Assembly (NCBI GenBank): GCA_944389385.1
Contig: CALXMC010000003.1
Coordinates: forward strand, 74,356-138,355
From: an uncultured Alphaproteobacteria bacterium
GTDB lineage: Bacteria; Pseudomonadota; Alphaproteobacteria; Rs-D84
Direction of reading: 5' to 3'
Length of the DNA stretch: 64,000 nucleotides
Part shown: in pieces, positions 39,068 to 59,032 of the stretch
Layout of the letters: every line of letters starts with the position of its first letter
How positions within the stretch are numbered: the first letter of the stretch is position 1
The notes under the pieces: generated by a model
The model's input: the letters and a program-made list of their open reading frames with translations, nothing else
Told to the model about the DNA's origin: nothing
Database searches by the model: none
Position numbers and translations under genes: made by a program

Positions 39068-39586
39068 TTAATACCGGCCAATACATCCCAAATATGAATT
39101 GCCGGTCGATTCCAAGACATTTATAAATTGAGTCGGACTGCGCCCCGCAAACAGCGCCAAAATCGTCCCCGCGTCCGTGGCCAACATGTCCGCAACCGTC
39201 GCAATCCCGGAATTCATTTTTTTGAAAAAACCACTGGCTGGATATATTTCCGCCGCCAATAACTGATTTTTACCCGCACGCGGCGCACGCGATGCCACGG
39301 TTTTATTTTCAATCACCATTAACTGGCATTCCGGCGATATAATCAGTTTGTCCGTCACAACCGCGGACGCACCCAACAATTCGCCCCACCAACCAGTCGA
39401 TTCGCAAAACACAGGATAATATATCGTCGCATTCGGATTTTTTTCCAATACATCCGTCAAATCAACGTTACCCGTCACAACGTCTGGCATAACACCGGCC
39501 GCGGCGTTAATAACCTTGCGCGATAACTGGTAATCCGCATCTGCGGTTGTTTTACGTGGCCAATAAAGAATCGGAAACTGCTTCAT
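39068..39586 (-). CDS. hypothetical protein, 172 aa
   Basis: No family recognised. No signal peptide or clear membrane helix. It begins MKQFPILYWPRKTTADADYQ and has an alternating hydrophobic pattern suggesting a mixed alpha/beta fold, with a WW pair near residue 66 and cysteines at about 60, 87 and 168. No ribosome binding site: TATAAT ends 8 nt before the ATG at 39586, so the mRNA is probably leaderless. It lies beside the VirB6-like cluster but no link can be shown. Confidence 0.65.
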   Translation of the reverse strand: MKQFPILYWPRKTTADADYQLSRKVINAAAGVMPDVVTGNVDLTDVLEKNPNATIYYPVFCESTGWWGELLGASAVVTDKLIISPECQLMVIENKTVASRAPRAGKNQLLAAEIYPASGFFKKMNSGIATVADMLATDAGTILALFAGRSPTQFINVLESTGNSYLGCIGRY

Positions 39587-39629: not shown

Positions 39630-39655
39630 CGCGTGAAATAAAGCGCTTGATTTTT
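39630..39655. terminator. possible terminator at the end of the leftward VirB6-like gene
   Basis: GCGC / GCGC hairpin with a T-run on the right and CCCCCCTTTTTT on the minus strand. Confidence 0.4.
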
Positions 39656-40944
39656 TATTTTTTTAGTGAGGAATACCAGTTTTTCAGGTTTTTCCACGTT
39701 ATTTCCAGATGCTTTTTCGTCGATTCGTAGAATTTTTCCGGAATTTGTACTTTGGCAAATAACGCTTTGACCAGCGCAGGTATCATTGTCATAAACATCG
39801 CAATGAATATCCCCATTAAAACAACCGTTATCAAACTGTCGTTGCGCATAAACAGTCCGTCAATCAAAATACTCGAATCGTTTTGTTCCAATGCCAGCGC
39901 CAATCTGTCTGCGCCATCCCATTTGCCAAATACCGCATTCAAAAACATGACAGAAAACGTTACAAACACGCCAACCATCGCAATTCCTGCGGTCGATTTT
40001 ATCACGTCATCTATCATATCTTTTATGTTACGACCGCCATCAGGGAATATTTTCCAACCCTTGAACAGCCAAGACATCAGCATAAATGGCAACATTATTA
40101 AATCCAACGACAATGTAATAAAAACCTGTAAAAAATACAAAGGAATCGGCAACAGTGCCGCAAAGTACAATAACAAGATTAACGCACCAACCAAAATCAT
40201 CGGGATATTTGGAAATATTGGAATATCCCACATCATAGTGTGCATATATTCTTCATCAAATGCCATGTTTATAACCGTCCAACCAATCGCCATTCCCAAT
40301 CCAGTCATTTGGTGAACGTTTGAAATCTCGCACGAAAGATTATGACGCAAACGTGGCGAAAACGCGCCCGACTGGGCGGCATCAACACTGGTTGTCATTG
40401 GATCTGACAAAGCAGTGGCAACAACGCATTCTGAAAAACTATCATTGCCGGCAATCGCGCGATTCAGCGACAATCCGACGTTAAAAACAGGCTCGATTAC
40501 CACATCGGTTAAAAAACGCGGCAACGGCACCATTAACAAAGCAATTATTAAACCCAATTTCATAAATTTTGTTGCAAAGTCACTGGTAATAGACCATGGA
40601 CTTTCCAATTTAGAACCAAGAAATCCTGAAAACAGATTCCATGCAAACCAGACACCCAGCAATCCCGCAGAAAAAGGTATTATAACACTGCTTACCGCGC
40701 TGTATACGCGCGGCACCAGACCGGACATTGTCGCCATAATATCGGCAAACATTTGACACGACCAACAACTGGAAAAAAAACTTAACGCATCTGCCATATT
40801 GACGGGTACAGCCGTTCTGTATATTGAAAATCCCGCAATCGCACCGATACCTGCAATCGCCCCAACAACCAATGGCGCAACCGCCCCCGCCGAAAAAGGC
40901 AGGAACGATAAAAATACTATCCAGAATTTTTTTAATCCATTCAT
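39655..40944 (-). CDS. VirB6/TrbL-like multi-pass membrane protein (paralogue 1)
   Basis: 429 residues. A signal-like N-terminus is followed by about seven hydrophobic segments. At residues 60-63 a CWSC motif is followed by QMFADIMATMSGLVPRVY and a membrane helix. The same layout occurs in the paralogues at 42285 and 43526. Later segments (IPLYFLQVFITLSLDLIMLP and the KGWKIFPDGGRNI loop) resemble VirB6/TrbL proteins of type IV secretion systems. It is divergent from paralogues 2-5 across 69 bp. TATACT ends 7 nt before its ATG with no ribosome binding site. The family assignment is by layout, not by a diagnostic motif. Confidence 0.65.
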   Translation of the reverse strand: MNGLKKFWIVFLSFLPFSAGAVAPLVVGAIAGIGAIAGFSIYRTAVPVNMADALSFFSSCWSCQMFADIMATMSGLVPRVYSAVSSVIIPFSAGLLGVWFAWNLFSGFLGSKLESPWSITSDFATKFMKLGLIIALLMVPLPRFLTDVVIEPVFNVGLSLNRAIAGNDSFSECVVATALSDPMTTSVDAAQSGAFSPRLRHNLSCEISNVHQMTGLGMAIGWTVINMAFDEEYMHTMMWDIPIFPNIPMILVGALILLLYFAALLPIPLYFLQVFITLSLDLIMLPFMLMSWLFKGWKIFPDGGRNIKDMIDDVIKSTAGIAMVGVFVTFSVMFLNAVFGKWDGADRLALALEQNDSSILIDGLFMRNDSLITVVLMGIFIAMFMTMIPALVKALFAKVQIPEKFYESTKKHLEITWKNLKNWYSSLKK

Positions 40945-40951
40945 CGTTTTA

Positions 40952-40985
40952 AGTATACCATATTTTGCATTAAATATGATATAAT
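40952..40985. promoter_or_regulatory. divergent promoter region of the VirB6-like cluster
   Basis: Leftward -10 TATACT (40957-40952), 7 nt before the ATG at 40944. Rightward -10 TATAAT (40980-40985), 28 nt before the ATG at 41014. Neither has a strong -35, so an activator may be needed. Confidence 0.45.
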
Positions 40986-41013
40986 TGAAAAGATAAAAAA
41001 TTATATCGGGGGA

Positions 41014-42288
41014 ATGTATTTAATAAAACGCTTGTTTTTATATGCTGTTGCGGTGATTTTGTTAATGTCGCCGATGGGGGCGTATGCCGCAGATTATGCC
41101 ATTGTTGATGCGTTAAATGTGGCACCACTGATTCCGACAATATTGGATGCTTTGATGGCGGTGGCAACGGGTGGATATGATTTTTTTGTCGGCAAGGGTA
41201 ATGGTATTATTTACATTTTAATCTGGGGATTTTTGGCAATATCCATATCACTGTATCTGTTAAAAATGTATTTTCCAAAGGTCTGGGTGTCGTTTTTTGG
41301 TTTTTCAGATGGCGGTGAAATGTTTGACAAGGGTGTGTCTGGTTTTACCATCGCCGAAAATTTATTGCGGCCGTCGATACGCGCAATTATCGCAGTAACT
41401 GTTTTACTGCAAATCAAACCGGTATATTTAACAGAATGGCTGATTAACCCGTTTTTACAGTTCGGCGCACTTTATACAGAAAGTATCACAGAAACACTGA
41501 ATAACGCAGGCATTGCCCCAGATATAGAATGCCCGCCATCCGTTGTACAACAGGGTTGGATAAGTCCAGAAAGTTGCGAGTTTTTGGTTCAACCAGTCTC
41601 GGATTTGTCATACGCAAATAACCAGGTTATTAAACGCGGTTTTGATTTTATTAAATCTGGTTTGCGTGGAATGATAACTTTAATTCCGCATGGCGGGGAA
41701 AATTTTATGAATTTAATAACTGGGATTTTATTGGTTTCCACATTTGTGTCCAGCAATCTGTTCATGGCGTTGCTGATTATCCAGGCCATCTTTAATTTCG
41801 GAATGTCGTTGGTTCTGTATCCTTTTCAGGTTTTGGCATACGTTGTTAAACCAAGTGATAAATGGTTTGATATATGGCCTGCATTCAGTGGAATTACAAA
41901 ATCTTTGCAAAAAATTATTGTAACTATGATCGCATGCGCGTTCATATTGTGTGTTAATATCGCAATAATCAGATCGCTTTTTCAATGGAATTCGTCTGTC
42001 TTTGTCACAGCGGCGAGCGGTTCGGCTTCGTCAAACGTCCCGACAATGGCGTCATCTGCCTTGGGATTTGGCGAGCATTCGATATTATGGTTATCGTCTG
42101 TGTTAACATTGTATTTAATGTTCCGTATATTCGATATGACACGCGAACGATTAAATGACTATATCGGTAAAGGCATGGATGGATTGTATAACCAGGTGCG
42201 CGGTGATGTAAAAACTTTAACCAAAGATGCAAAAAAATATGGGTCTTCTTTGGCCAAGGCAATCGGATGGATTAAAAAGAAAAAATGA
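41014..42288 (+). CDS. VirB6/TrbL-like membrane protein (paralogue 2)
   Basis: 424 residues. A cleavable signal peptide (about 1-25, ending AYA-AD) and six to seven membrane segments; a Lys-rich cytoplasmic tail ends KKKK. The block FFVGKGNGIIYILIWGFLAI matches the position of the CxxC-helix block of its paralogues but lacks the cysteines. The ATG is only one base after GGGGGA, unusually tight. First of four genes joined by ATGA/GTGA/TAATG overlaps. Probably an inner-membrane channel component of a secretion apparatus. Confidence 0.65.
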   Translation: MYLIKRLFLYAVAVILLMSPMGAYAADYAIVDALNVAPLIPTILDALMAVATGGYDFFVGKGNGIIYILIWGFLAISISLYLLKMYFPKVWVSFFGFSDGGEMFDKGVSGFTIAENLLRPSIRAIIAVTVLLQIKPVYLTEWLINPFLQFGALYTESITETLNNAGIAPDIECPPSVVQQGWISPESCEFLVQPVSDLSYANNQVIKRGFDFIKSGLRGMITLIPHGGENFMNLITGILLVSTFVSSNLFMALLIIQAIFNFGMSLVLYPFQVLAYVVKPSDKWFDIWPAFSGITKSLQKIIVTMIACAFILCVNIAIIRSLFQWNSSVFVTAASGSASSNVPTMASSALGFGEHSILWLSSVLTLYLMFRIFDMTRERLNDYIGKGMDGLYNQVRGDVKTLTKDAKKYGSSLAKAIGWIKKKK

Positions 42289-43529
42289 ACAGATTGGTTA
42301 ATTCTTTTGTCGAATCCACAGTCCAATGTTGGGGGTGCGAGGTCTTTGACCGACTGTTCCAGATTGTGTCAAATGCCGCGGCCGCTGTTTACGATAAATT
42401 TGTAATATTTTGTGCGATATTATTCTGTGTGCTGTTTGTGTTTTACCTGATAAACGCGGTATGGAAAAATTTCAAAGACGGTATTACCGATCCGCTTTAT
42501 CAAAAATCTTTGAAACCATTGTTTATAAATTCTTTGGTATCGCTGACGTTTTTAAGCATGGGGGTTGTGTTGCCGCGCTTTATCACAACCATCACATTCG
42601 AACCAGTCGCAAATATAACGGTTATTTATACACAAAGCATGCTGCAAACAAACCCAGATGAAGTTAATGAACGTGTAACGTACCAACCTGCAAAAATCGA
42701 AGATGATGGATTTTATCGCCCCCAGTTGCGCGACAGTATCGTGATGTTAATGAAAACAACAATCACCCAATTCCAATCGTATATGAAACTTGGCATCGCT
42801 GTGATGGATAAAGCGTTTTCGTTAAGCGCGTTGTTAAGTATATCTTCGCTGATTAAGCATATTATTTTATTCTTTATCGGGATGTACTTGTTTATCGGGA
42901 TTTTCAAACTGTTCCTGCGGTTCTGTTTTTATTTCGCAGACATTATAGTCGCAATGACATTCTTTGCTTTTTTCTTTCCTTTGTCGTTAATATTGGTTGC
43001 GTTCAAAGGCGATAATGCACCAAAATGGATGAGTGGTTTGGGGAAAGATGTGGGAACAAATCAATTCAAAAAGTTAATAGATTCTATTGTCGCACTGGCG
43101 GCGGCTGTGTTAACTTATACAGTGCTCATGGTCATTTTGGCAAAATTCTTTGCGGAACCAGGGCAAAGTGCGGCCGATATAATGAACATGATTACCAGCG
43201 GCGAAATATACTCGGATGAATTATCAGAAGAAAATTTACAGGCCATGACACTGGGCGGATGCGTCGTGTTGGTTTATGTATTAAACTTTATATACGGACA
43301 AATTCCACAGGTTACTTCAATGGTATTAAGTTCGTTCGGTGTATCGTCTGAAAACAAATTAAGCGAACAATTGGCCAATGACGCAATGCAATTAACAAAC
43401 GATGTTTTGAATGTTGTAAAACAAGCCGGTAAAAATATTTTAAGTGGTGGGGAAAAATCTGATAATAAAGAAGATACCACAAAAAAATCAAAAGATGGTG
43501 GCGCCACTGGGGGCGACGGTAAAAAGTGA
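42285..43529 (+). CDS. VirB6/TrbL-like membrane protein (paralogue 3)
   Basis: 414 residues with about seven hydrophobic segments. CWGC at 15-18 is followed by EVFDRLFQIVSNAAAAVYDK and the first membrane helix, matching paralogues 1 and 4. The central part (about 185-240) is strongly hydrophobic with aromatic clusters. The C-terminus (about 375-414) is a hydrophilic Lys/Asp/Gly-rich tail, probably cytoplasmic. Start ATG overlaps the upstream stop by 4 bp. No signal peptide, unlike paralogue 2. Confidence 0.65.
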   Translation: MNRLVNSFVESTVQCWGCEVFDRLFQIVSNAAAAVYDKFVIFCAILFCVLFVFYLINAVWKNFKDGITDPLYQKSLKPLFINSLVSLTFLSMGVVLPRFITTITFEPVANITVIYTQSMLQTNPDEVNERVTYQPAKIEDDGFYRPQLRDSIVMLMKTTITQFQSYMKLGIAVMDKAFSLSALLSISSLIKHIILFFIGMYLFIGIFKLFLRFCFYFADIIVAMTFFAFFFPLSLILVAFKGDNAPKWMSGLGKDVGTNQFKKLIDSIVALAAAVLTYTVLMVILAKFFAEPGQSAADIMNMITSGEIYSDELSEENLQAMTLGGCVVLVYVLNFIYGQIPQVTSMVLSSFGVSSENKLSEQLANDAMQLTNDVLNVVKQAGKNILSGGEKSDNKEDTTKKSKDGGATGGDGKK

Positions 43530-44971
43530 AAGCACGACTGATAATCTTTGCCATACAATTTATTATGTGCGCAATCGCGTTGGGGGTCGGTGTTTGGTAT
43601 TTGTCTTCATCCATTGGCGGCGATGCGATTACATATACCAGTGTAAATAATTTTATGACCGCCATTGGTGTTGAAAATGGCGATATTGCATCGGCGAATG
43701 GTTGTTTTCTGTGCGGATATATTGAACAATTGTTTTCGGTTATCGGTAATGCGGCCGAGATGTTCTGGACCGCTATGGTCGATAATATATGGATATTGTT
43801 GGCTTTGGGATTCGGATTATTTTTAATTATAACCACCGGTAAGTATATATATGACGCCGCCAAGCCCGCGGCAAAATTGGATACAAAAGAAATTAAATTA
43901 GATTTCGCGGGATGGTTCGACAAAGTCTGGCGCCAAGGTGCACGCGTGTTAATCGTCGGCGCGTTAATGGGCGCATTGGGCATGGGCGGAACCGCTGCAT
44001 TACGCACAGTTGCAAATATTACCATTACACCGGTTTTGTTTGTGGGGGCTGAATTATCTATGTTGGCAACTGGTGTATCGGATGCGGCACAGTGCGCTGC
44101 AATAAATACATCCGCCGTGACTGGTGATATTCTGAATCCGATTTTACAACCATTTATGTGCGCCATCAGCAATATCAACAGCGTTATGTTGGCTGGGGCG
44201 GCCGGCGGATTTTCGTTAATGAATTATGCTTGGTTGGGCATGGGCGGCGGCGTATTTACGTGGATTGCAGGATTGGCATTGGTTTTGATGTTCTTGGTCA
44301 TCGGATTTGATTTGGTGTTCCAAGTTTTGTCGGTTATTTTCAAATTAGTATTTCTGATAATATTTTTACCACTTATTTTGGCCGCAGCCGCGTTCGAACA
44401 AACTTGGTCTTTGGCGGGTGGCGTGGTTAAAAATGCTGTAAATATGTTGGTGACATCTGCAATTCGAATTGTGGCCATTTCATTAAAGACGATTATCATT
44501 TTTGCAATTGTCGCATACGCCGCAGATGCTTATTTCCCCGGGCCCGTTGATGGATACAGTGCTGTATTACCGCCGATGATGGGACAGTCTGTTGAAAATC
44601 CAGATGCACAAACTATGTCTGTCATAAACGTCTTTGCCACGTGCGAGCAAGCGTCCATAGTCGATGGTGTCGTCGACAAAGAATTATTCAAAGATTGTTT
44701 TACCGCGCAACGTAATGCCATTGAAAACCAATACCCTGGCGCGTTTGATTTTATGCGTAACGGATGGGATTTCTTGATACTGATGCTGTTTTTATTCGCG
44801 TTATACTTTTGGGTTATTAAATCACGCGTCGATGCAATATTCGGATTGGATAAAGTCGGCAAAGACGAAACGTTTGATTTTGGCACGTGGGCCAAAGGAT
44901 TGGGGGTAAAAATCTGGCATACGCCAAAACAAATTGTAAAATCTGTGACCGAAGCTTTGGGCAAAAAGTAA
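43526..44971 (+). CDS. VirB6/TrbL-like membrane protein (paralogue 4)
   Basis: 481 residues, GTG start overlapping the previous stop (GTGA). An N-terminal hydrophobic segment (about 5-27), a short periplasmic part, then CFLC at 60-63 with GYIEQLFSVIGNAAEMFWTA, the shared block. Further helices include a Gly/Ala-rich region (about 145-185) and the segment GLALVLMFLVIGFDLVFQVL. The tail after about 440 is hydrophilic. Coupled at both ends, so co-translated with its neighbours. Confidence 0.65.
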   Translation: MKARLIIFAIQFIMCAIALGVGVWYLSSSIGGDAITYTSVNNFMTAIGVENGDIASANGCFLCGYIEQLFSVIGNAAEMFWTAMVDNIWILLALGFGLFLIITTGKYIYDAAKPAAKLDTKEIKLDFAGWFDKVWRQGARVLIVGALMGALGMGGTAALRTVANITITPVLFVGAELSMLATGVSDAAQCAAINTSAVTGDILNPILQPFMCAISNINSVMLAGAAGGFSLMNYAWLGMGGGVFTWIAGLALVLMFLVIGFDLVFQVLSVIFKLVFLIIFLPLILAAAAFEQTWSLAGGVVKNAVNMLVTSAIRIVAISLKTIIIFAIVAYAADAYFPGPVDGYSAVLPPMMGQSVENPDAQTMSVINVFATCEQASIVDGVVDKELFKDCFTAQRNAIENQYPGAFDFMRNGWDFLILMLFLFALYFWVIKSRVDAIFGLDKVGKDETFDFGTWAKGLGVKIWHTPKQIVKSVTEALGKK

Positions 44972-46269
44972 TGAATTTATTAAAACGAATTTTTGCCAAA
45001 TTTATGATTGTCGCGACTGCGGCGGTGTTGATTGCACCATGCGCATTGGCCGCGGATGCAACATCAAATCTGCCGTTTACTGAAATTGGTGATTACGGCA
45101 ATTGGATGACTGTGGATAATATTTTACAATTCGACAGCGCAATCGAAACAGATATGAAAAATTTCCAACCGCAATCCACCCAATTGGTTGATGATTATGT
45201 GCCCATTGTGGCCAAGGCTGGGTTGGCAATGATGAATGGGTTATCCATGATTTCGGACATGTTGGATTCGTCATTGGTTCGGTTTTCGATTATATTTATG
45301 CTTTTGGCGTACGCGTTTTGGATTATGTTCGAAGCGTATAACATGGTAAAAAAAGGCACGTCAGCCAAGGAACTTGGTGAAAAAATCTTCAAAAAAGCCG
45401 CTGTTATTATGATATGGTCAATCATTTTGAATTTTGGCCCCGCCCAGGTGTTTATGTGGGTAATGGGACCGATTATTATGATTGCGTCGTATTTATCTGA
45501 TTTGATATTAAACGCTGTATCGTCGGTGGTTGGTGTTCAGTTGCCTGACACTTGCGCGGCCATACGCGAGTATACCATAAACAATTTATCCGACAGTATG
45601 ATTATGGATGCTGAATCTGCGGCAACTTTGCTGTGCATACCGACGCGGCTGTCTGGATTTTTCACAACCGGAATCGGCGCAGGATGGCAATGGATGATTG
45701 CAGGAATTGGCCACAGTGCTTTTACAGTCTTGGTTGGTGCGGTTTTTATTGTGCTGTTTTTATACAACGGATTCAAATTTGCAATGATGGCATTCGGTGT
45801 AATTGTCGATTTATTCTTGGGTGTAATGATGTTGCCTTTTACCGCAATAGCAGAAACATTAAAAGACAAAACATCGTACCAAGGAATCGCCGGCGATATA
45901 TTCAATGGATTTTTGGGATTATTCAGTGCCGAGACTTTACAAAAACAAATCGAACGCTTTATTAACGCCGCAATTTATTTTGTGTCGTTGTCGATTGTAA
46001 TTGCGGTTTGTGTGGCATTATTATCTGGAACGGTCAGCGTTGATATGTCTGCGCAAATACCGACGTTGGAAAATGATGGATTTATACCAACGTTATTAAC
46101 CGGGGCATTGGTGGCGTATTTGGCGGCGCGTGCCGGCACGATTGCAGAAAATATTGGTGGCCGTGTAAACGATAATTTTGGAAAAGCTATGTCAGAAGAT
46201 ATTGTCAGATTGTGGAAAAACACATACGGAAAAGCCAAAAATTTTATAAAAGATGTGCGCAAGAAATAA
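44971..46269 (+). CDS. VirB6/TrbL-like membrane protein (paralogue 5)
   Basis: 432 residues from the ATG at 44971, which shares a base with the upstream TAA (TAATG); the frame is open further upstream but overlaps paralogue 4. Signal peptide (about 1-28, ending ALA-AD), then a periplasmic segment and seven or so helices. The shared block reads AGLAMMNGLSMISDML with the cysteines lost. The FLYNGFKFAMMAFGVIVDLF stretch is the VirB6-like core. The Lys/Arg-rich tail ends KDVRKK. Last gene of the coupled series; uvrD converges on it 6 bp later. Confidence 0.65.
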   Translation: MNLLKRIFAKFMIVATAAVLIAPCALAADATSNLPFTEIGDYGNWMTVDNILQFDSAIETDMKNFQPQSTQLVDDYVPIVAKAGLAMMNGLSMISDMLDSSLVRFSIIFMLLAYAFWIMFEAYNMVKKGTSAKELGEKIFKKAAVIMIWSIILNFGPAQVFMWVMGPIIMIASYLSDLILNAVSSVVGVQLPDTCAAIREYTINNLSDSMIMDAESAATLLCIPTRLSGFFTTGIGAGWQWMIAGIGHSAFTVLVGAVFIVLFLYNGFKFAMMAFGVIVDLFLGVMMLPFTAIAETLKDKTSYQGIAGDIFNGFLGLFSAETLQKQIERFINAAIYFVSLSIVIAVCVALLSGTVSVDMSAQIPTLENDGFIPTLLTGALVAYLAARAGTIAENIGGRVNDNFGKAMSEDIVRLWKNTYGKAKNFIKDVRKK

Positions 46270-49120: not shown

Positions 49121-49150
49121 AAAAATCCCCGAACATCGGGGATTTTTTTA
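49121..49150. terminator. bidirectional terminator after dnaQ
   Basis: AAAAATCCCCGA-ACA-TCGGGGATTTTTTT between dnaQ and the convergent giant gene. Confidence 0.85.
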
Positions 49151-52100
49151 TGGGACCGGGATTACTGGATCTTTGTCCACATCTGTACTGGGGTCTTTGT
49201 CGCCGCCCTCGCCACCGTCGCCACCACCGACTATGGGCTGTTCCAAACATGCATACGGGTTATAGATTGGGAGGTGTCCATCGTCACATTCACAATAATT
49301 TGTTCCGGCCACCAAAGACGCCCCATTAACACATTTGCACGATCCATCTGTGTTGCGACCATCGGTAAAGGCACCACACGATTCCACACAACGCGAATCA
49401 TACGGATCGTATCCATCAACGCACGCACAATAATCGTTCACGCAACTTTCACGCTTGTTAATCGACGCCGCGCATTCGCGGTCGTACCTGGAATTTGTTG
49501 TACAGCACACCGGTACCTTGAATGTCTGATATTGGCTGGTTGTTCCCCTGGGGCATCCACACGCACCGGTCATTCCCAATGTCGCCCCAGGTCCGCATAT
49601 ACATTCACCAGTATCTTCATCGCGACCAATCCCCAGAACACCACATGCAATTCTACATGTGTTGTTAACATTTTCGAACCCGCTGTTGCATTGACACAGA
49701 CCCGTTTCTGAATCTCGGGTTGCGTTGGAAACGCACACGCATTCACCATCAACCTCTTGTTCCAACACACCGCAGCCTTTTGGTACGCATTTACCATCTT
49801 CTTCCACGAATCCTTCGTCGCATTGGCAAACAAGGTTTTCGTCTTTGGTTGCGTTGGCAACACATACGCATTCGGTACCAACCACTTCTTCCAACTGGCC
49901 GCATGATTCCGGTATACATCCGGTTTTATCTGCGTTAGGTACCTTGCCATCGTCACATTCGCACCAAATGTTTGCGGTCGTTAAATGTGCACCTGGGAAA
50001 CATCTGCATATTGCGTAGTCATTATCCCAAGTTCCCAAATTACACACAGTATCATACGGATAACAAGCAAGTGGTAAACCGGCATCTGGTTTGGCAAAAC
50101 TGGTATAATTTTCTTCGCATTTGTCGCATCTGCCTGTTTCTGGGTCTTGTACCGCATGCTCGATACATACGCATTGCCCGCTTTCGGCATCAAATGATCC
50201 AAGCATTCCACAATCTTGGGGTTCACAAGCGTTTTGGTTTTGCTCATAATTTTCATTGCATTGACACAGTCCTGATTCTGGATCTCGGGTTGCATTGGCA
50301 ACACACACGCATTCACCATCTTTCAACTCTTCCAAATTATCGCACACCGTTGGTACGCATGCGCCGTTTTCTTCCACATATCCGTCATCGCATTTGCAAT
50401 TCCAACCATTGCCAGTTCTGACTGCATTTTCAACGCACGAGCACGTATTACTCTCCCACTTTGTCAAAGTAGATGCCGCACATTTTTCTTGATCGGTTTG
50501 TTCATCTTGTTGCGGTACGCATGCGTTTCCACTTTGAACAAATCCAGAATCGCATTGGCACTTGCCAGAAACCTTGGTTGCGTTGGCAACACATACGCAT
50601 TGACCATTAACCAGTTGTTCCAACGCGCCGCAATTGGGTGTATCGGGTTCATCATCGTCATCATTACCGCCACCCTGGTTGCCGCCGCCTTGGTTACCGC
50701 CGCCACCAGAGCCCGTGCCATCGTCGTATACACAAACGCCGTTTTTCATTATATATCCTGAATCGCACACGCATACGCGGTTCGAGTTTCTGGTGGCATG
50801 TTCGCCACACGGCGCATAGCAATACGTACCCCATGATTCATAACTGCCAATACATTTGCACATATTGTTCACACACCCACCCACTGTACCATCTGGGGAT
50901 ACGCCAGACTGGCATGATGTGCCTGCATACATCGCATTGTCTGGGCACAATAATGACTGATAGAACATCTCGGATATACTTTGAATACATGTATCGTCAT
51001 CGGCATTGTCACCTTTGGGGCAATGGGTCTCATCATCCGCAAACACCGCATACGCGCATGTCAATGCCACGTTGCGGCATGCACCACGCATAACGCTATA
51101 TATACTGGACACGTTCGCTGTCGATGACCATGCGTTAACCTGGGTTACCTGCTGATTATAACAATTTGCCACATCCAATATGCACGTAGATGAATAATCA
51201 GATATAATCCGTTGCTGTTGGGCACGAATGTTCACCATTGCACGCTGGACATAATTCACAACAATGTCGTTATATGGAATATATCTGTCGTCGTCGTATG
51301 TATATGCGCGACACTTGTCCAACACAGGACGACACAGACCCTCGGCGGTGGCAACCTCGTTCGTGCCGATTTTTTGCAACAAATATTTCGCAATACAGCG
51401 ACCATCATTACCACCCTTGTCATCTTCGGTATCGGTTACCTGTTCGGCACAAAATTCTGGATCCAACGTGGTGTTTATACCATAAGATCTGTTCAAAAAG
51501 CTGCGATCTATCTTGGCATTATTATAATTTTCCATAAATTCTGTGATTTTGGTAATGTCTTGCCCGATTACAACCTCGCCATTTTCGTCGATATACCGCT
51601 TGGTCGGATCCAAACATTTTTTATAATCCGCGCCACAGACCATCTCGTCCGTCATGCACGCATCCAAGGCCGCAATACATCCTTTACCATCATATTGGTT
51701 TTGATTCTGTCTTACCGCCAAGCGCGCCTTTTGCAGCATTAAATTCGCACTGCGCACGTTGGACACCAATGTTTCATTCATTTTGGTTAATCCTTGGCCG
51801 TATTCAATACAGTCACGATCAACCGCCAAATCATAGTTTGCTGTGATTTGATCAATGTTGGCGCCGGCATCTTCGCATTCTTGCAAAACAGTTCTGCAAC
51901 GGTTGCGCGCCGCGTTATATAAACTTGTGCCGCGCAGGTTTGATAAACTGGATGTGCCGGTATTCAAAAAATCCAAACTGAATATATCCGCAACATTGGC
52001 CGAAAAATCCAAATTCATGTCCAAACCAAATGACATGGACGACGATGAATATGATGAAGATGTACTGATTGGGTCACTGATTAAATCTTCGATTTCATCC

Positions 52101-53053
52101 AACATGCTGCGCGTTTCAGATGTATCGCGCGCACCGGACAGAGCCTCTTCAGCCTCGGTCTCGTTCATAATCGCGCGTATTTCGTCGGCCGACAAACCAA
52201 CATAACGAATACGCTGTGCAACCTCGTTTAACTGGTTATTGGCATCGGTAACGGCCTCTTCTACCTCTACATAATCATCCAACATCGCCGAACAAGAGCA
52301 TCGACCCTGGTTCGCGTCAATAACATTACAAAACTGATCCATACAGTCGTTATACTGCTGCTGGCATGACGCATTCAAATCAGATGTTAAATCCAGACGT
52401 TGTGTGGCCTCGGCAATAGACTCGGCCGTTGGGACATTCGTTGCCGCACGTGATACCGCATTACGGTTTTGCGTACGTACCGCGCCCGTCGCCACATCGG
52501 TCGCGTTTACAGGCCGTTGAACTATGTTCGTTGTGCGGCGCGCCGATGATTGCTGGGCGGTTGCCACAGGTGTCTGGGCCGCGCGCGATACGGATATCGC
52601 CGACCGCCCAGGTACAGATACCGTGTTCGTTGCCACACCCGTGCGTGATACCGTGCCAGTACCCAATGTGTTGACCGTGCCACGCGGAACAGAACGTGTC
52701 TGTGACGCATTGTTCAAATTCAAAACCCGTTCGGCACCGTTGCCACGCGATACTGTGTTACGTTCCGTTACATTCGCCATCGTGCGCACAACCGTATTGC
52801 GCGGCGTGGCCGTACGCGATGTAACGGTGGCACCCGACAAATCCGATGTCTCATTCGCAGCCGTGCGCGATACAACATTGGCGGAATTACGCGATACCGT
52901 CGATGTATCACGACGCGACGTGGATGTAGATGTATCCGCAGATTCTGTGGCCTGTCCGGGGGTTAAACGCGAAACAGCAAACGCGCCACCGTCGGCAAAA
53001 ACCAACGGTGCAAGCGCCACAATCAAAAAAAAGCACAAAGGCAATTTTTTCAT
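49148..53053 (-). CDS. giant exported Cys-rich modular protein A (1301 aa)
   Basis: Signal peptide (about 1-20, ending VFA-DG). Residues 21-215 are a disordered Ser/Thr/Arg/Val-rich stretch with repeated VSR and SRT motifs. Residues about 230-290 start a Cys-containing helical domain (CQQQYNDCMDQFC, then CSCSAMLDDY), followed by further helices with paired Cys to about 720. A Gly/Asn/Asp linker (near 810) leads to about nine tandem Cys-rich modules of roughly 40-45 residues of the form CG.LE...GECVCV.NAT....CQC..GF....CVP, EGF/TIL-like. The tail is Gly/Asp/Pro-rich. Probably secreted or surface-held with disulfides. Leader is only 12 nt past TATAAT. Family not recognised. Confidence 0.85.
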   Translation of the reverse strand: MKKLPLCFFLIVALAPLVFADGGAFAVSRLTPGQATESADTSTSTSRRDTSTVSRNSANVVSRTAANETSDLSGATVTSRTATPRNTVVRTMANVTERNTVSRGNGAERVLNLNNASQTRSVPRGTVNTLGTGTVSRTGVATNTVSVPGRSAISVSRAAQTPVATAQQSSARRTTNIVQRPVNATDVATGAVRTQNRNAVSRAATNVPTAESIAEATQRLDLTSDLNASCQQQYNDCMDQFCNVIDANQGRCSCSAMLDDYVEVEEAVTDANNQLNEVAQRIRYVGLSADEIRAIMNETEAEEALSGARDTSETRSMLDEIEDLISDPISTSSSYSSSSMSFGLDMNLDFSANVADIFSLDFLNTGTSSLSNLRGTSLYNAARNRCRTVLQECEDAGANIDQITANYDLAVDRDCIEYGQGLTKMNETLVSNVRSANLMLQKARLAVRQNQNQYDGKGCIAALDACMTDEMVCGADYKKCLDPTKRYIDENGEVVIGQDITKITEFMENYNNAKIDRSFLNRSYGINTTLDPEFCAEQVTDTEDDKGGNDGRCIAKYLLQKIGTNEVATAEGLCRPVLDKCRAYTYDDDRYIPYNDIVVNYVQRAMVNIRAQQQRIISDYSSTCILDVANCYNQQVTQVNAWSSTANVSSIYSVMRGACRNVALTCAYAVFADDETHCPKGDNADDDTCIQSISEMFYQSLLCPDNAMYAGTSCQSGVSPDGTVGGCVNNMCKCIGSYESWGTYCYAPCGEHATRNSNRVCVCDSGYIMKNGVCVYDDGTGSGGGGNQGGGNQGGGNDDDDEPDTPNCGALEQLVNGQCVCVANATKVSGKCQCDSGFVQSGNACVPQQDEQTDQEKCAASTLTKWESNTCSCVENAVRTGNGWNCKCDDGYVEENGACVPTVCDNLEELKDGECVCVANATRDPESGLCQCNENYEQNQNACEPQDCGMLGSFDAESGQCVCIEHAVQDPETGRCDKCEENYTSFAKPDAGLPLACYPYDTVCNLGTWDNDYAICRCFPGAHLTTANIWCECDDGKVPNADKTGCIPESCGQLEEVVGTECVCVANATKDENLVCQCDEGFVEEDGKCVPKGCGVLEQEVDGECVCVSNATRDSETGLCQCNSGFENVNNTCRIACGVLGIGRDEDTGECICGPGATLGMTGACGCPRGTTSQYQTFKVPVCCTTNSRYDRECAASINKRESCVNDYCACVDGYDPYDSRCVESCGAFTDGRNTDGSCKCVNGASLVAGTNYCECDDGHLPIYNPYACLEQPIVGGGDGGEGGDKDPSTDVDKDPVIPVP

Positions 53054-54223: not shown

Positions 54224-55810
54224 TTATGGGCACAATGCCAATTGTCTTAATACATTTTGTACGTCATTATTGACCGACACAGTTATTTCACGTTGCAGGC
54301 CATCAACGTATGTATAATTAAACTTGTAATCCCGGAATTCTGGGAACGCGGCGTATGCCTGCTGGAACGGGGCAAGCATGGCGTAAAACCACTGACGCCC
54401 ACGGCACAGGCAACCATTGCGAACGTCCGCCGCAACAGCCGCGGTGGCTGTGTTGGGATATTTTTTATCCAACTCGCTGTCTGTCATCATTAAACAACGC
54501 GCACCAAACCCATAGAAATTCGCATCATCCGACATGAATTTATATATCAAACCATCCGATGCACCGGCATTCTTTAACGAATATACCATGCCATCCGTAC
54601 AGCACGCATTCGCAGATCCCATTAACATTTTATACCGTTCCAACAATGGTGCCGCCAATGGGTTATTTGCCGTTATATTCTTGTCACAACGCGCGGCATC
54701 TATGAATTCATCCATTTTTTCGGCGCGGATTAACGGGCTGCGCGGCGCGACAGTTTCACGAATAATCGGTTTACGACGCCAGATTTGACATTCGGTTTCA
54801 CTGTCAAACGGGCAACCGTCCGCCCGACCAAACACCACCGTAACCAGACGACTTAAATCTTGGGCCACGTATTCAGGCCGTGGTGATGGCAATTTTATGC
54901 GATCGATGGTCGCATCGCCAATTATTGCGGTATTTTTTTGCTTGGTTACCGTTACCAGGTTGCTGTCCGATGTTGTATACTGGGGTTGAGACCCGTCCGC
55001 AACCACAGGCGTTGGCGCAGGTTCTGCGACAACCTCTTTGGACACAGTCTGGGCCGCAACAACATTGGCCGTAACAACCGTATCCGCAGCAACATCCACG
55101 TCCGCCGCGGGTGCGACCTGTACATCCACCGTATCCGATACAACGTTTGTATCCGCCACAGGTGCGGTTTGAACAACAGCGGCATCGGTAACCGTTTCGG
55201 TTGTATCTTGCACCCATAAATTTTCAGTCGGCTTGTTCGGCCGTAATAATTCTTCGATACGTGCACGCGTTGCAGCGGCATCCGCCATATTTTGTTTATA
55301 TAAATCAACCACGTTAATTTCTTCGTGATTTTTGGGATTTTGCGCAACAACCGTCGCCACGGGTTCGTATGGGGTATCCGCCTGGCGTATATATAATTCC
55401 GGCATCGGTTGCAGGAACCAATCTGTGTAATCTTTGTATTTATAACTGGGTACAGAATCATCCCAAATCGGCACACCATCACGCCAATCGACCGTTTTGT
55501 CATACCCGCGCGGATCATACGTTCCAACAGACCCATCCCAAACAGGTTCACGGTCATCATCCGGCACAGATTTTATCGACAACAGTTTTACCGAACGCAT
55601 TGGATCGGGATCCTGGTATATATACTGGGGCATTTGTGCACGCATCTCGGCCGGTGCAGTTTTCACCTGTCCCATTTCCAAAACCAACGGATCCGCCGGC
55701 TGCGCCGGTGTAACTTGATAACACCCAGGTCCGACACATGCGGCCATAGACCCGGAATTCGCCCCACATAAATACAGTAAAGACGAAAAAATAAAGATTT
55801 TCCTTCTCAT
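54224..55810 (-). CDS. exported protein B (528 aa), unknown function
   Basis: Starts at the ATG at 55810 (MRRKIFIFSSLLYLCG), giving a signal peptide of about 25 residues; the frame extends upstream without signal. Residues 30-190 are Pro/Asp/Tyr-rich with repeated WDxSV/WDDSVP segments. Residues 200-290 are a Val/Ala/Asp/Thr low-complexity stretch. The C-terminal 220 residues look folded, with Cys in CPFDSETECQIW, ACCTDGMVY, RCLMM, GCLCRGRQWFY and a final CP. No family recognised. TATTAT ends 7 nt before the ATG and no ribosome binding site is present. It sits between giant proteins A and C, sharing export and Cys content. Confidence 0.75.
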   Translation of the reverse strand: MRRKIFIFSSLLYLCGANSGSMAACVGPGCYQVTPAQPADPLVLEMGQVKTAPAEMRAQMPQYIYQDPDPMRSVKLLSIKSVPDDDREPVWDGSVGTYDPRGYDKTVDWRDGVPIWDDSVPSYKYKDYTDWFLQPMPELYIRQADTPYEPVATVVAQNPKNHEEINVVDLYKQNMADAAATRARIEELLRPNKPTENLWVQDTTETVTDAAVVQTAPVADTNVVSDTVDVQVAPAADVDVAADTVVTANVVAAQTVSKEVVAEPAPTPVVADGSQPQYTTSDSNLVTVTKQKNTAIIGDATIDRIKLPSPRPEYVAQDLSRLVTVVFGRADGCPFDSETECQIWRRKPIIRETVAPRSPLIRAEKMDEFIDAARCDKNITANNPLAAPLLERYKMLMGSANACCTDGMVYSLKNAGASDGLIYKFMSDDANFYGFGARCLMMTDSELDKKYPNTATAAVAADVRNGCLCRGRQWFYAMLAPFQQAYAAFPEFRDYKFNYTYVDGLQREITVSVNNDVQNVLRQLALCP

Positions 55811-55905
55811 GTATTGAATAATATCACAAAATAAAGTCTTTTGAAACAGAAATTTACATATTTCGTTACAAATTTTGCATTTTTTCAAATATAACGATTT
55901 TAATA

Positions 55906-55930: not shown

Positions 55931-58900
55931 TTAAGTGGCTATTGCGCCAGATGAATCATCGTCTGGTTCATCGGGCTGAACCTGGACACAGGCATTTGAC
56001 TGCAATACATATCCCGCCGCACATGATGTCGGGATACATGCACTCCAATCCGTGCCAGTCCACGTACGTTTAGCGGACAAAACATTTGGATCTGTGTGGG
56101 TGCATGATTTTGTATCCGCCACACACCGCGTTCCAACCAATGTATAGTTTTCTTCACACGATTTCGGTGTACATGTGCCCCATGCAGCACCATTCCATGT
56201 CTGGGTTGCAGTCGCCACACCCGGCACGTTCGGCAATTCGCACGAACGAACGGTTGATGTGCACTTGCCATTTTCCAATATGTATCCGATACCACATGAT
56301 TCAACCGTGCACGGACCATAAGAACCACTTTTTTCGTCCCATGTTTCATACGCAGTGGCGGCATTCGGTACACTGGATGTGCATGGACGTTTTAATTGAA
56401 CGCATTCAACGCCGTCAACCAACACGTACCCAGATGCACATGCCGATGGCGTGCACTCGCCCCAACCATTACCATTCCAGGTCTGGGTTGCACTGGTCAT
56501 ATTGGAACCAGATGGGGTACATGCACGGACATTCGAAACACATGCGTTATTTTCAGAATGTGTCCCGGTCGGGCATGCCTGACAACGGCCAGATTGTGCA
56601 ACATAGCCATCCACGCATTTGGTTAACACACATGGTCCCCAACCTGTAACTTGGCCATTTGCATCCGTTCCCTGGTAACTGTCACCCATCCAGGTCGTTA
56701 CACCATTGTCTGTTCCCTGGGCTGCATTTGGATCATCACCGGTATAACTGCATGTACGAGTATTTGCAACGCATACACCGTTTTCGTTATGTGTGCCCGT
56801 CGGACATTCAGGTGACGCCCAGTCTTCGCCAGTGTCACCCTTTCTCCACGAACGAACGCCTTCGACGTCAATATCCTGCAAGCATTGTTCACGCAGCGCG
56901 ACAGACGAACCTTCGACCGCACCCAACGCATATCCGCCGTCCAATATTTCAGACAGTGTGATGATATTGCGGCATGTATTTGTATCGTAATCCGTTGTGT
57001 TATCACACGCATTTTCAGTATCTTCTTTGTTAATAACCGCCTGTAACACATTGTTCGGCGCGCCACAAATCATCTCTTCATAACAATGCGGCACATTGGA
57101 CACCTGGGAACAATATGTTTTGATACGGCTGGTGCTCCAATTCGGTTGTGATGTTTCCTGGGTTGTGTAACAATCATACAGTTCAGACAAACATTCGTTA
57201 AAGTTACTGCGCGCGGCCGCATAGTCAGACGCAATTGTGTCTTGTTCTTCCTGATAAAACTCTAAGCGTTTTTGCTGCAAAGCCTGTTGCGCTGCAACCT
57301 TTTGATAACCGATATTTTGTGCGGCTGTACTTAATTGTTCGCCGTACAAATCGCAATCCGCATTGGCATCCAACGCATATTGCTGCATAATACTGCGGCG
57401 TGCATCCGCCACCGGCCCACGCAAGTCTGCGTATGGGTCACCCGATGCGGTTGTGTAACCAAAACATGTCGCAGAATTGGACGCTGTATTATCCTGGGGG
57501 GTTATGAATTCCAGGTTATATTCATCGGTATTGTTTACGTCGATATAACTGTTATAATTGTACGGGCATTGGCTGCGGCCGTTACCACATTTACGATTAT
57601 TTGCCGGCAAACCGCACGCTTCGTATATGCCGTTAAAGCAGGAATCCAACACGCGGTTACAAACGTTATTGTGTGCATATTGAAACAATTCGTATCCCCA
57701 TGTTTCAGCCAAAGAGTCTTTGACACCGCTTTTGTCTGCCAAATTTAATTGTCCGTCAATTCCCGCCAAATTACCAACGACACTGGTCAATTCATCAAAT
57801 GCAGATGCCAAACTGTCGTTATCTTCGGTCAATATGGTTAATGTATTTTCTTTGGCTTTGGCCCAAGATTGTAATGATGCCAAAATATCACTGCTGGAGC
57901 CATCTATTGTTGATAAATCAAATCCGAACGTATTACCAGACTCGGAACAGTACGATGGTTGATTACATGGCGTTTGTCCACCACCGTTACCATCAAACAT
58001 GCCATGGTTAAAGCACCATTCTTCGGCCTCGGATGAATCAACACCGTATTGGTCGGTAACTTCTTTCCAAGAAATACAATTCATAACCTTTTCAGCATCG
58101 GTTAACTGGAACGCTTCGGTCACAGCCTTGCCTTTGGTGGCAATTAACAAAGCCAATTCGCCAGACACCTTGATTAACTCTTCATTTGCCTGCTCTAACT
58201 TGGCCTCGGCATCGGCAAATGCACGAACACGACCGGCACATGCACAACGACGTTGCGCCGCGTTACGCGCGGTGCAAATCTCGTCCATACAGGCATAATA
58301 TGATTCTTTGCAGTTATTATAAGCCTCGGCAGAAATCAGACCAGTAGAACTGTCGATAATATTCGAATAATTACCCGTATACAATGCGTTTGACAGATAT
58401 GTATATGTATTGGTTGCAGCCTTGCTGCCGCGGATGGCACTGCCCTGTAAAGAGATACGCGATGGCGTTGTTGTTGCCGCACGTGAACGAACAGTGCGTG
58501 ATGCTGTATTTGCCGCCACACGCGATACCGTGTTCGATGCCGTGCCGCGCGACACCACGTTACGTGCCGTAACATTACGACCCCCAGACGCCGCATTTGG
58601 CGTTCCACGCGACGCAGTCGCCGTTGCGCGTGATACCGTCGGATTTGCACGCGACGACGAAACCGTTGCACGCGATGTATTCGTTGTGGCAACACGCGAC
58701 GCAGTTGGCGTTGTCACCGTGCCACGCGACACCGTCGCGCGCGATGATACACCACGCGGCGTTACAACTGTGTTATTTGACGTCTCTCGCGATACGACAT
58801 TGGTTGACGAACCGCGCGAAGTCACTGGACGCGCCGATGCAGACCGTACGTTTGCACCATTGCGTGGCGATTGAATCGCCGCAGCCGTTGGCACCACATA

Positions 58901-59032
58901 CGCCGGCGCAACCGGATCCGCTAACACCGCGCGCATTGACACCAATGTAGAACAAACAAAAAATGCACCGGCCAGTAAAAACACTGTCCCCATTGCGTTT
59001 TTCAAATTTTCTGCGAAATTATGGCGTTTCAT
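55931..59032 (-). CDS. giant exported Cys-rich modular protein C (1033 aa)
   Basis: Signal peptide or N-terminal anchor (about 13-38). Residues 45-200 are a disordered Arg/Ser/Thr/Ala/Val region with many VSR, TASR and SRAT repeats. From about 230 a Cys-containing helical domain begins (CKESYYACMDEIC, RRCACAGRVRAF), parallel to protein A. Paired-Cys helices continue to about 750. The last 280 residues hold five to six modules of the form ATQTWNG..WG.CTP.SC..GY.L....CV. It has an AGGGGGAG ribosome binding site and a leader of about 90 nt after a TATAAT. Probably surface-exposed; function unknown. Confidence 0.85.
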   Translation of the reverse strand: MKRHNFAENLKNAMGTVFLLAGAFFVCSTLVSMRAVLADPVAPAYVVPTAAAIQSPRNGANVRSASARPVTSRGSSTNVVSRETSNNTVVTPRGVSSRATVSRGTVTTPTASRVATTNTSRATVSSSRANPTVSRATATASRGTPNAASGGRNVTARNVVSRGTASNTVSRVAANTASRTVRSRAATTTPSRISLQGSAIRGSKAATNTYTYLSNALYTGNYSNIIDSSTGLISAEAYNNCKESYYACMDEICTARNAAQRRCACAGRVRAFADAEAKLEQANEELIKVSGELALLIATKGKAVTEAFQLTDAEKVMNCISWKEVTDQYGVDSSEAEEWCFNHGMFDGNGGGQTPCNQPSYCSESGNTFGFDLSTIDGSSSDILASLQSWAKAKENTLTILTEDNDSLASAFDELTSVVGNLAGIDGQLNLADKSGVKDSLAETWGYELFQYAHNNVCNRVLDSCFNGIYEACGLPANNRKCGNGRSQCPYNYNSYIDVNNTDEYNLEFITPQDNTASNSATCFGYTTASGDPYADLRGPVADARRSIMQQYALDANADCDLYGEQLSTAAQNIGYQKVAAQQALQQKRLEFYQEEQDTIASDYAAARSNFNECLSELYDCYTTQETSQPNWSTSRIKTYCSQVSNVPHCYEEMICGAPNNVLQAVINKEDTENACDNTTDYDTNTCRNIITLSEILDGGYALGAVEGSSVALREQCLQDIDVEGVRSWRKGDTGEDWASPECPTGTHNENGVCVANTRTCSYTGDDPNAAQGTDNGVTTWMGDSYQGTDANGQVTGWGPCVLTKCVDGYVAQSGRCQACPTGTHSENNACVSNVRACTPSGSNMTSATQTWNGNGWGECTPSACASGYVLVDGVECVQLKRPCTSSVPNAATAYETWDEKSGSYGPCTVESCGIGYILENGKCTSTVRSCELPNVPGVATATQTWNGAAWGTCTPKSCEENYTLVGTRCVADTKSCTHTDPNVLSAKRTWTGTDWSACIPTSCAAGYVLQSNACVQVQPDEPDDDSSGAIAT

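Follow-up and report, generated by a model that had tools for sequence, protein, structure and literature searches.

Among the systems closest to the one reported here are the type IV secretion systems (T4SSs) of R388, of Legionella and, under the name rvh, of the Rickettsiales. In R388, VirB6 (TrwI) forms a homopentamer with VirB5 on top, and the alpha-1 helix of TrwI has been proposed to recruit the pilin (PMC9259494); in Legionella, DotA/IcmX forms a pentamer, the protochannel (PMC12857230). The multi-VirB6 rvh T4SS is held to be an order-level signature of the Rickettsiales (PMC11077975), and the cause of its VirB6 multiplication is a long-standing question (PMC2653234, PMC7648143). Here we describe an array of five VirB6-like genes, designated A to E, in a 64-kb window (the whole stretch of DNA that was analysed) of contig 3 of an alphaproteobacterial genome (993 kb, 97% complete). 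The host, with a genome of roughly 1 Mb, belongs to the order Rs-D84 and is kin of Candidatus Enterousia; its nearest named relatives are metagenome-assembled genomes of that taxon and of further gut Alphaproteobacteria, which are assigned to Rs-D84 and have genomes of about 1 Mb (PMC12306168).

The original prediction described one leftward and four rightward genes for polytopic proteins of 414-481 residues, linked by ATGA, GTGA and TAATG junctions. All five open reading frames (ORFs) were found in that arrangement: A lies on the minus strand, and B, C, D and E overlap on the plus strand by four bases each at B/C (ATGA) and C/D (GTGA) and by one base at D/E (TAATG). The ORF list gives E as 460 residues, from an upstream GTG start; counted from the TAATG junction it has 432. 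The array comprises:

39655..40944, minus strand: VirB6 paralogue A, 429 aa; predicted TrwI/VirB6 fold, Z 12.2-13.3; profile match at E 2e-26 to tandem VirB6 proteins from other Alphaproteobacteria; kept in all but truncated loci of the family

40756..40767, minus strand: CWSC motif of A, residues 60-63; cysteines conserved in 109/109 sequences; just before the helix equivalent to VirB6 alpha-1, the TrwI structural alignment starting at model residue 55-58

40945..41013, no strand: divergent A/B intergenic region, 69 bp, AT-rich, as read in the sequence; likely site of both promoters

41014..42288, plus strand: VirB6 paralogue B, 424 aa; CxxC absent from the N terminus; cysteines 173/188; hhalign probability 97.1 to A, 97.1 to C and 98.6 to E; invariant position in the array

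42285..43529, plus strand: VirB6 paralogue C, 414 aa; hhalign probability 99.4 to A; profile matches tandem VirB6 proteins at E 4e-16

42327..42338, plus strand: CWGC motif of C, residues 15-18; cysteines conserved in 108/108 sequences

43526..44971, plus strand: VirB6 paralogue D, 481 aa; predicted TrwI/VirB6 fold, Z 13.3-13.4 over 259-267 residues; top Foldseek matches at probability 1.00; profile match to tandem VirB6 proteins at E 1.5e-11

43703..43714, plus strand: CFLC motif of D, residues 60-63; cysteines conserved in 105/108 sequences

44971..46269, plus strand: VirB6 paralogue E, 432 aa; CxxC absent from the N terminus; cysteines 195/222 invariant (105/105); hhalign probability 98.6 to B, 97.7 to D and 97.6 to A

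We interpret A to E as VirB6 paralogues that make up the VirB6 portion of a split T4SS, and hold this explanation with high confidence when it is taken as a whole, together with the heteropentamer proposed below. AlphaFold2 models were made for A and D, and for both of them the R388 TrwI/VirB6 chains ranked top in Foldseek and in VIA-align. Foldseek returned a probability of 1.00 for the best TrwI/VirB6 chain, with E-values of about 0.009-0.1. VIA-align superposed 256-267 of about 270 residues at Z-scores of 12.2-13.4, to be read with the caveat that a Z under about 13 can mean an arrangement common in helical proteins. Legionella DotA came second for both models (Z 8.8-9.8), and unrelated chains reached 7.7 or less; the fold evidence carries weight because these two VirB6 counterparts, TrwI and DotA, rank first and second. 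The predicted fold is shared over nearly the whole TrwI chain, but TrwI is the product of one gene, whereas Rs-D84 has five paralogues, which carry cysteine motifs and, at the N terminus, an extension or a signal-like segment. DotA resembles them as second-best fold match and pentameric protochannel; unlike the Rs-D84 array, it is a single larger gene from a different T4SS subtype.

At the sequence level the five proteins are mutually homologous (hhalign probability 87-99 in all ten pairs) and highly divergent, at about 16% identity. Profiles of A, C and D matched tandem PF04610-positive proteins of other Alphaproteobacteria with the E-values listed above; in a control search of 973 ORFs, which included the family members and of which 494 had at least five hydrophobic segments, the best non-family match stood at E 0.015. 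A profile merged from the families aligned with 28 canonical VirB6 proteins at a probability of 97.0 over 267 columns. Single-family profiles gave weak values against the same canonical proteins (A 58, E 52, C 29, B and D under 2), and since they are weak for B, C and D, the VirB6 assignment rests on the merged profile and the fold. Direct Pfam and NCBIfam annotation of A to E returned nothing significant, and profiles of D and A found no real match among the sequences of solved structures.

The array was originally predicted to stand without other T4SS genes. This is correct for its neighbourhood, where no T4SS gene is adjacent, but not for the genome, in which a search recovered VirB3, VirB4, three VirB8, VirB9, VirB10, VirB11 and VirD4, dispersed over five islands:

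Contig 3: VirB8-VirB9-VirB10, beside rplK/rplA/rpoB; the island stops about 4 kb short of the left edge of the window, some 44 kb away from the array

Contig 1: VirB3-VirB4

Contig 1: VirD4

Contig 6: VirB11

Contig 6, L077:7670-9806: a tandem pair of further VirB8-like genes and, behind it, the gene for a secreted protein (262 aa) of unknown family

It is because these genes are scattered through the same genome that the array can be read as the VirB6 portion of a split T4SS; of the two possibilities first raised, the split T4SS therefore suffices and the new envelope machine is not needed. Taken together with the fold of A and D and the profile links to PF04610-positive proteins, the genomic complement bears out the VirB6/TrbL-like identity initially suggested. 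Two of the VirB8 proteins matched PF04335 above the cut-off and the third below it; VirB9 is represented by one PF03524 match in this genome, where a very diverged copy could escape, and VirB4 by one copy. The islands have housekeeping genes around them; this points to a system fixed in the chromosome and not to a mobile element of recent arrival. Two components on contig 3, left of the window, are long. VirB9 (L003:10085-11620, 511 aa) has a tail with a near-threshold match to the peptidoglycan-binding SPOR domain (PF05036, E 6.6e-4), and VirB10 (L003:11672-14173, 833 aa) has an N-terminal choice-of-anchor-D/ASH-like domain, a linker rich in proline and, past the TrbI domain, a C-terminal tail that contains cysteine.

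The CxxC motifs that had been pointed out in A, C and D are present, and they are not due to chance, being near-invariant in relatives when counted over about 110 related loci. In the predicted models the motif sits directly before the helix aligned to TrwI alpha-1. A second near-invariant pair of cysteines, equally conserved, is found at residues 173/205 of A, 173/188 of B, 190/212 of D and 195/222 of E. Beyond the family, many VirB6 relatives have a CWxC-type block as well.

Within the family the array is remarkably stable. Orthologues of D were detected in 137 of 142 genomes, with all 13 sampled genera represented, and VirB4 in 133 of 142, nearly always as a single copy (extra rows were fragments). 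Each of A to E occurs exactly once, in constant order, in 104 of the 112 stretches around the array, and most stretches without the full one-each set appear cut by contig ends. Of the five genomes without D, four retain VirB4, and their lack of D probably reflects assembly gaps, so that they say nothing on joint loss of D and VirB4. The inversion of A looks derived, because A is codirectional with B to E in one deep-branching genus (L063, L066-L068) and in a five-gene array from the other family of the order (L251). On one short contig (L075) B and D are oddly oriented, which may reflect misassembly, and the metagenome-assembled genome G031 has three distinct copies of D on contigs C5, C16 and C17, probably a mixture of species rather than a gene duplication.

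Two readings depart from a separate, split T4SS. That A to E form a non-T4SS envelope machine or transporter merely resembling VirB6 would agree with the lack of direct Pfam or NCBIfam matches and with the isolation of the array from T4SS genes, but the fold and profile evidence and the T4SS genes elsewhere in the genome make it a very remote prospect. The other reading takes up the analogy with rvhB6a-e drawn in the original prediction and would make this an rvhB6 array, with the rvh T4SS inherited or acquired by Rs-D84. In architecture the analogy is sound: the rvh T4SS likewise has tandem, highly diverged VirB6 copies, often five, together with gene islands, duplicated VirB8, VirD4 and a reduced genome (compare PMC2653234). 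In lineage it fails, and rvh identity, which we regard as improbable, was rejected on VirB4 phylogeny. In a tree of 47 VirB4 sequences, Rs-D84 clusters with the families designated f2, f49, f23, f74, f91, f40 and f52 (support 100/100), while the rvh-type genomes G353 and G250, which have two VirB4 each and a VirB6 array beside VirB4, fall in a separate clade with Vir-type systems. Forcing Rs-D84 and rvh-type VirB4 together costs 449 log units and is rejected by the approximately unbiased (AU) test (p-AU 1.9e-6), with the qualifications that the test, though its grouping was prompted by the earlier rvh analogy, was run after the tree had been seen, that branches are long and that rvh genomes were assigned by architecture.

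Gene content and VirB6 sequence point the same way. The rvh T4SS duplicates VirB4 (RvhB4-I/II) and VirB9, whereas the Rs-D84 genome has one VirB4 and one detected VirB9; rvh arrays lie beside VirB3-VirB4, with an ORF of 98-100 aa behind VirB4, whereas the arrays of the Rs-D84 lineage stand alone, apart from VirB3-VirB4. VirB6 proteins measure 668-1154 aa in Rickettsia typhi (PMC2653234) against 414-481 aa in Rs-D84, and the conserved CWxC block marks the latter off from rvh VirB6. Whole-genome searches with the merged profile at E 0.01 did not recover the rvh arrays, and rvh VirB6 shows greater affinity for canonical VirB6 (98.9%) than for this lineage's merged profile (94.7%). On the strength of the VirB4 tree and AU test, the standalone arrays and the VirB6 profile affinities, the Rs-D84 T4SS is a second multi-VirB6 lineage, separate from rvh.

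The closest VirB4 relatives are found in families f2, f23, f21, f12, f49 and f74, which have three to five VirB6 proteins, with CWxC and located away from VirB4 as in Rs-D84; the arrays are standalone in f2, f23, f49 and f74. They differ from Rs-D84 in that their VirB6 proteins reach 1200-1500 aa and their copies mostly cluster within their own family. By whole-genome count, five VirB6 are present in Rs-D84 (four were detected in one genome, although all five ORFs are there), and the number is likewise five for f2, f12, each of the three f23 genomes and one f21 genome; f49 has four to five, while f74 and f91 have three. The notion that the number in this lineage is always five was thus rejected. 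In the VirB6 tree each of A to E is monophyletic across the family (100%). Partners from f2 were found for A (95/67) and D (97/98), and the copies in other families cluster mostly with those of their own family. Either independent amplification or gene conversion could explain this, and the long branches allow no choice between them.

In the mechanism we propose, A to E would be inner-membrane-anchored subunits of the central stalk or protochannel of a chromosomal VirB/VirD4-type T4SS. Three overlapping junctions and a divergent promoter region suggest that they are made together; they would then co-assemble into a single heteropentameric ring that replaces the VirB6 homopentamer and is seated on the VirB4/VirB8 complex, with the CxxC motifs and the second cysteine pair forming periplasmic disulfides. 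A mixed ring is proposed because VirB6 and DotA form homopentamers and, by analogy with them, five paralogues that are coupled and apparently never lost most likely join in a single mixed pentamer, which would fit the fixed 1:1:1:1:1 set. The stricter form of the proposal, an obligatory A:B:C:D:E heteropentamer with an asymmetric central channel, combined with expansion to about five copies separately in the Rs-D84 lineage and in rvh, is put forward tentatively, at somewhat less than even odds. Our literature search found no paper joining 'VirB6' with 'heteropentamer'. Alternatively, each paralogue may build a homopentamer by itself, so that one shared T4SS base would work with five different stalks, chosen according to substrate, target or stage. 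The great divergence of the paralogues would suit such specialised versions, with which the well-supported, family-wide separation of the A to E clades is also compatible; strict one-each retention in genomes of about 1 Mb and coupled translation, both of which favour joint use, argue against it, as does the tendency of alternative modules to differ in number among lineages, and we judge it the less likely arrangement, possible but doubtful.

Several observations weigh against the split T4SS with a mixed VirB6 ring. Sister lineages carry three to five VirB6 copies, and because three- and four-copy relatives exist, a ring with one subunit of each kind is not a universal rule. Model confidence is moderate (predicted local distance difference test score, pLDDT, 72 for A and 69 for D), and the fold evidence covers A and D, not B, C and E. 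The Pfam scan gave no direct PF04610 match above the curated cut-off for any of A to E, whose link to that family runs only via relatives that match it. For VirB2, VirB5, VirB7 and relaxases, either none was identified or no genome-wide search was aimed at them.

Secretion by this system is likely to be substrate-coupled, since VirD4 and VirB11 are present. Substrates, likely proteins, would be recruited by VirD4 and delivered into a neighbouring cell; by analogy with rvh and with bacteria-killing T4SSs, we prefer protein delivery to neighbouring cells over DNA transfer. Members of Rs-D84, known from the literature as reduced-genome gut bacteria, carry a core secretion machine and hence probably affect the cells next to them. 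As a multi-VirB6 T4SS of common gut bacteria, second to rvh and separate from it, the system provides an independent case of VirB6 multiplication, and with short VirB6 proteins, almost free of extensions and in a fixed set of five, Rs-D84 makes the heteropentamer idea directly testable.

Other genes of the window were noted in passing. Two adjoining large minus-strand ORFs, at 54224-55888 (554 aa) and 55931-59032 (1033 aa), have no Pfam match. A 1301-aa secreted, cysteine-rich protein (49148-53053, minus strand), also without a significant Pfam match, contains repeated C-x-C-V-x-N-A-T-like units and lies beside UvrD/DnaQ genes in many loci. A 172-aa protein (39068-39586, minus strand), which has no Pfam or NCBIfam match and was not detected in the loci of the deep-branching genus g4, adjoins A in nearly all loci of the family and is a possible T4SS accessory.

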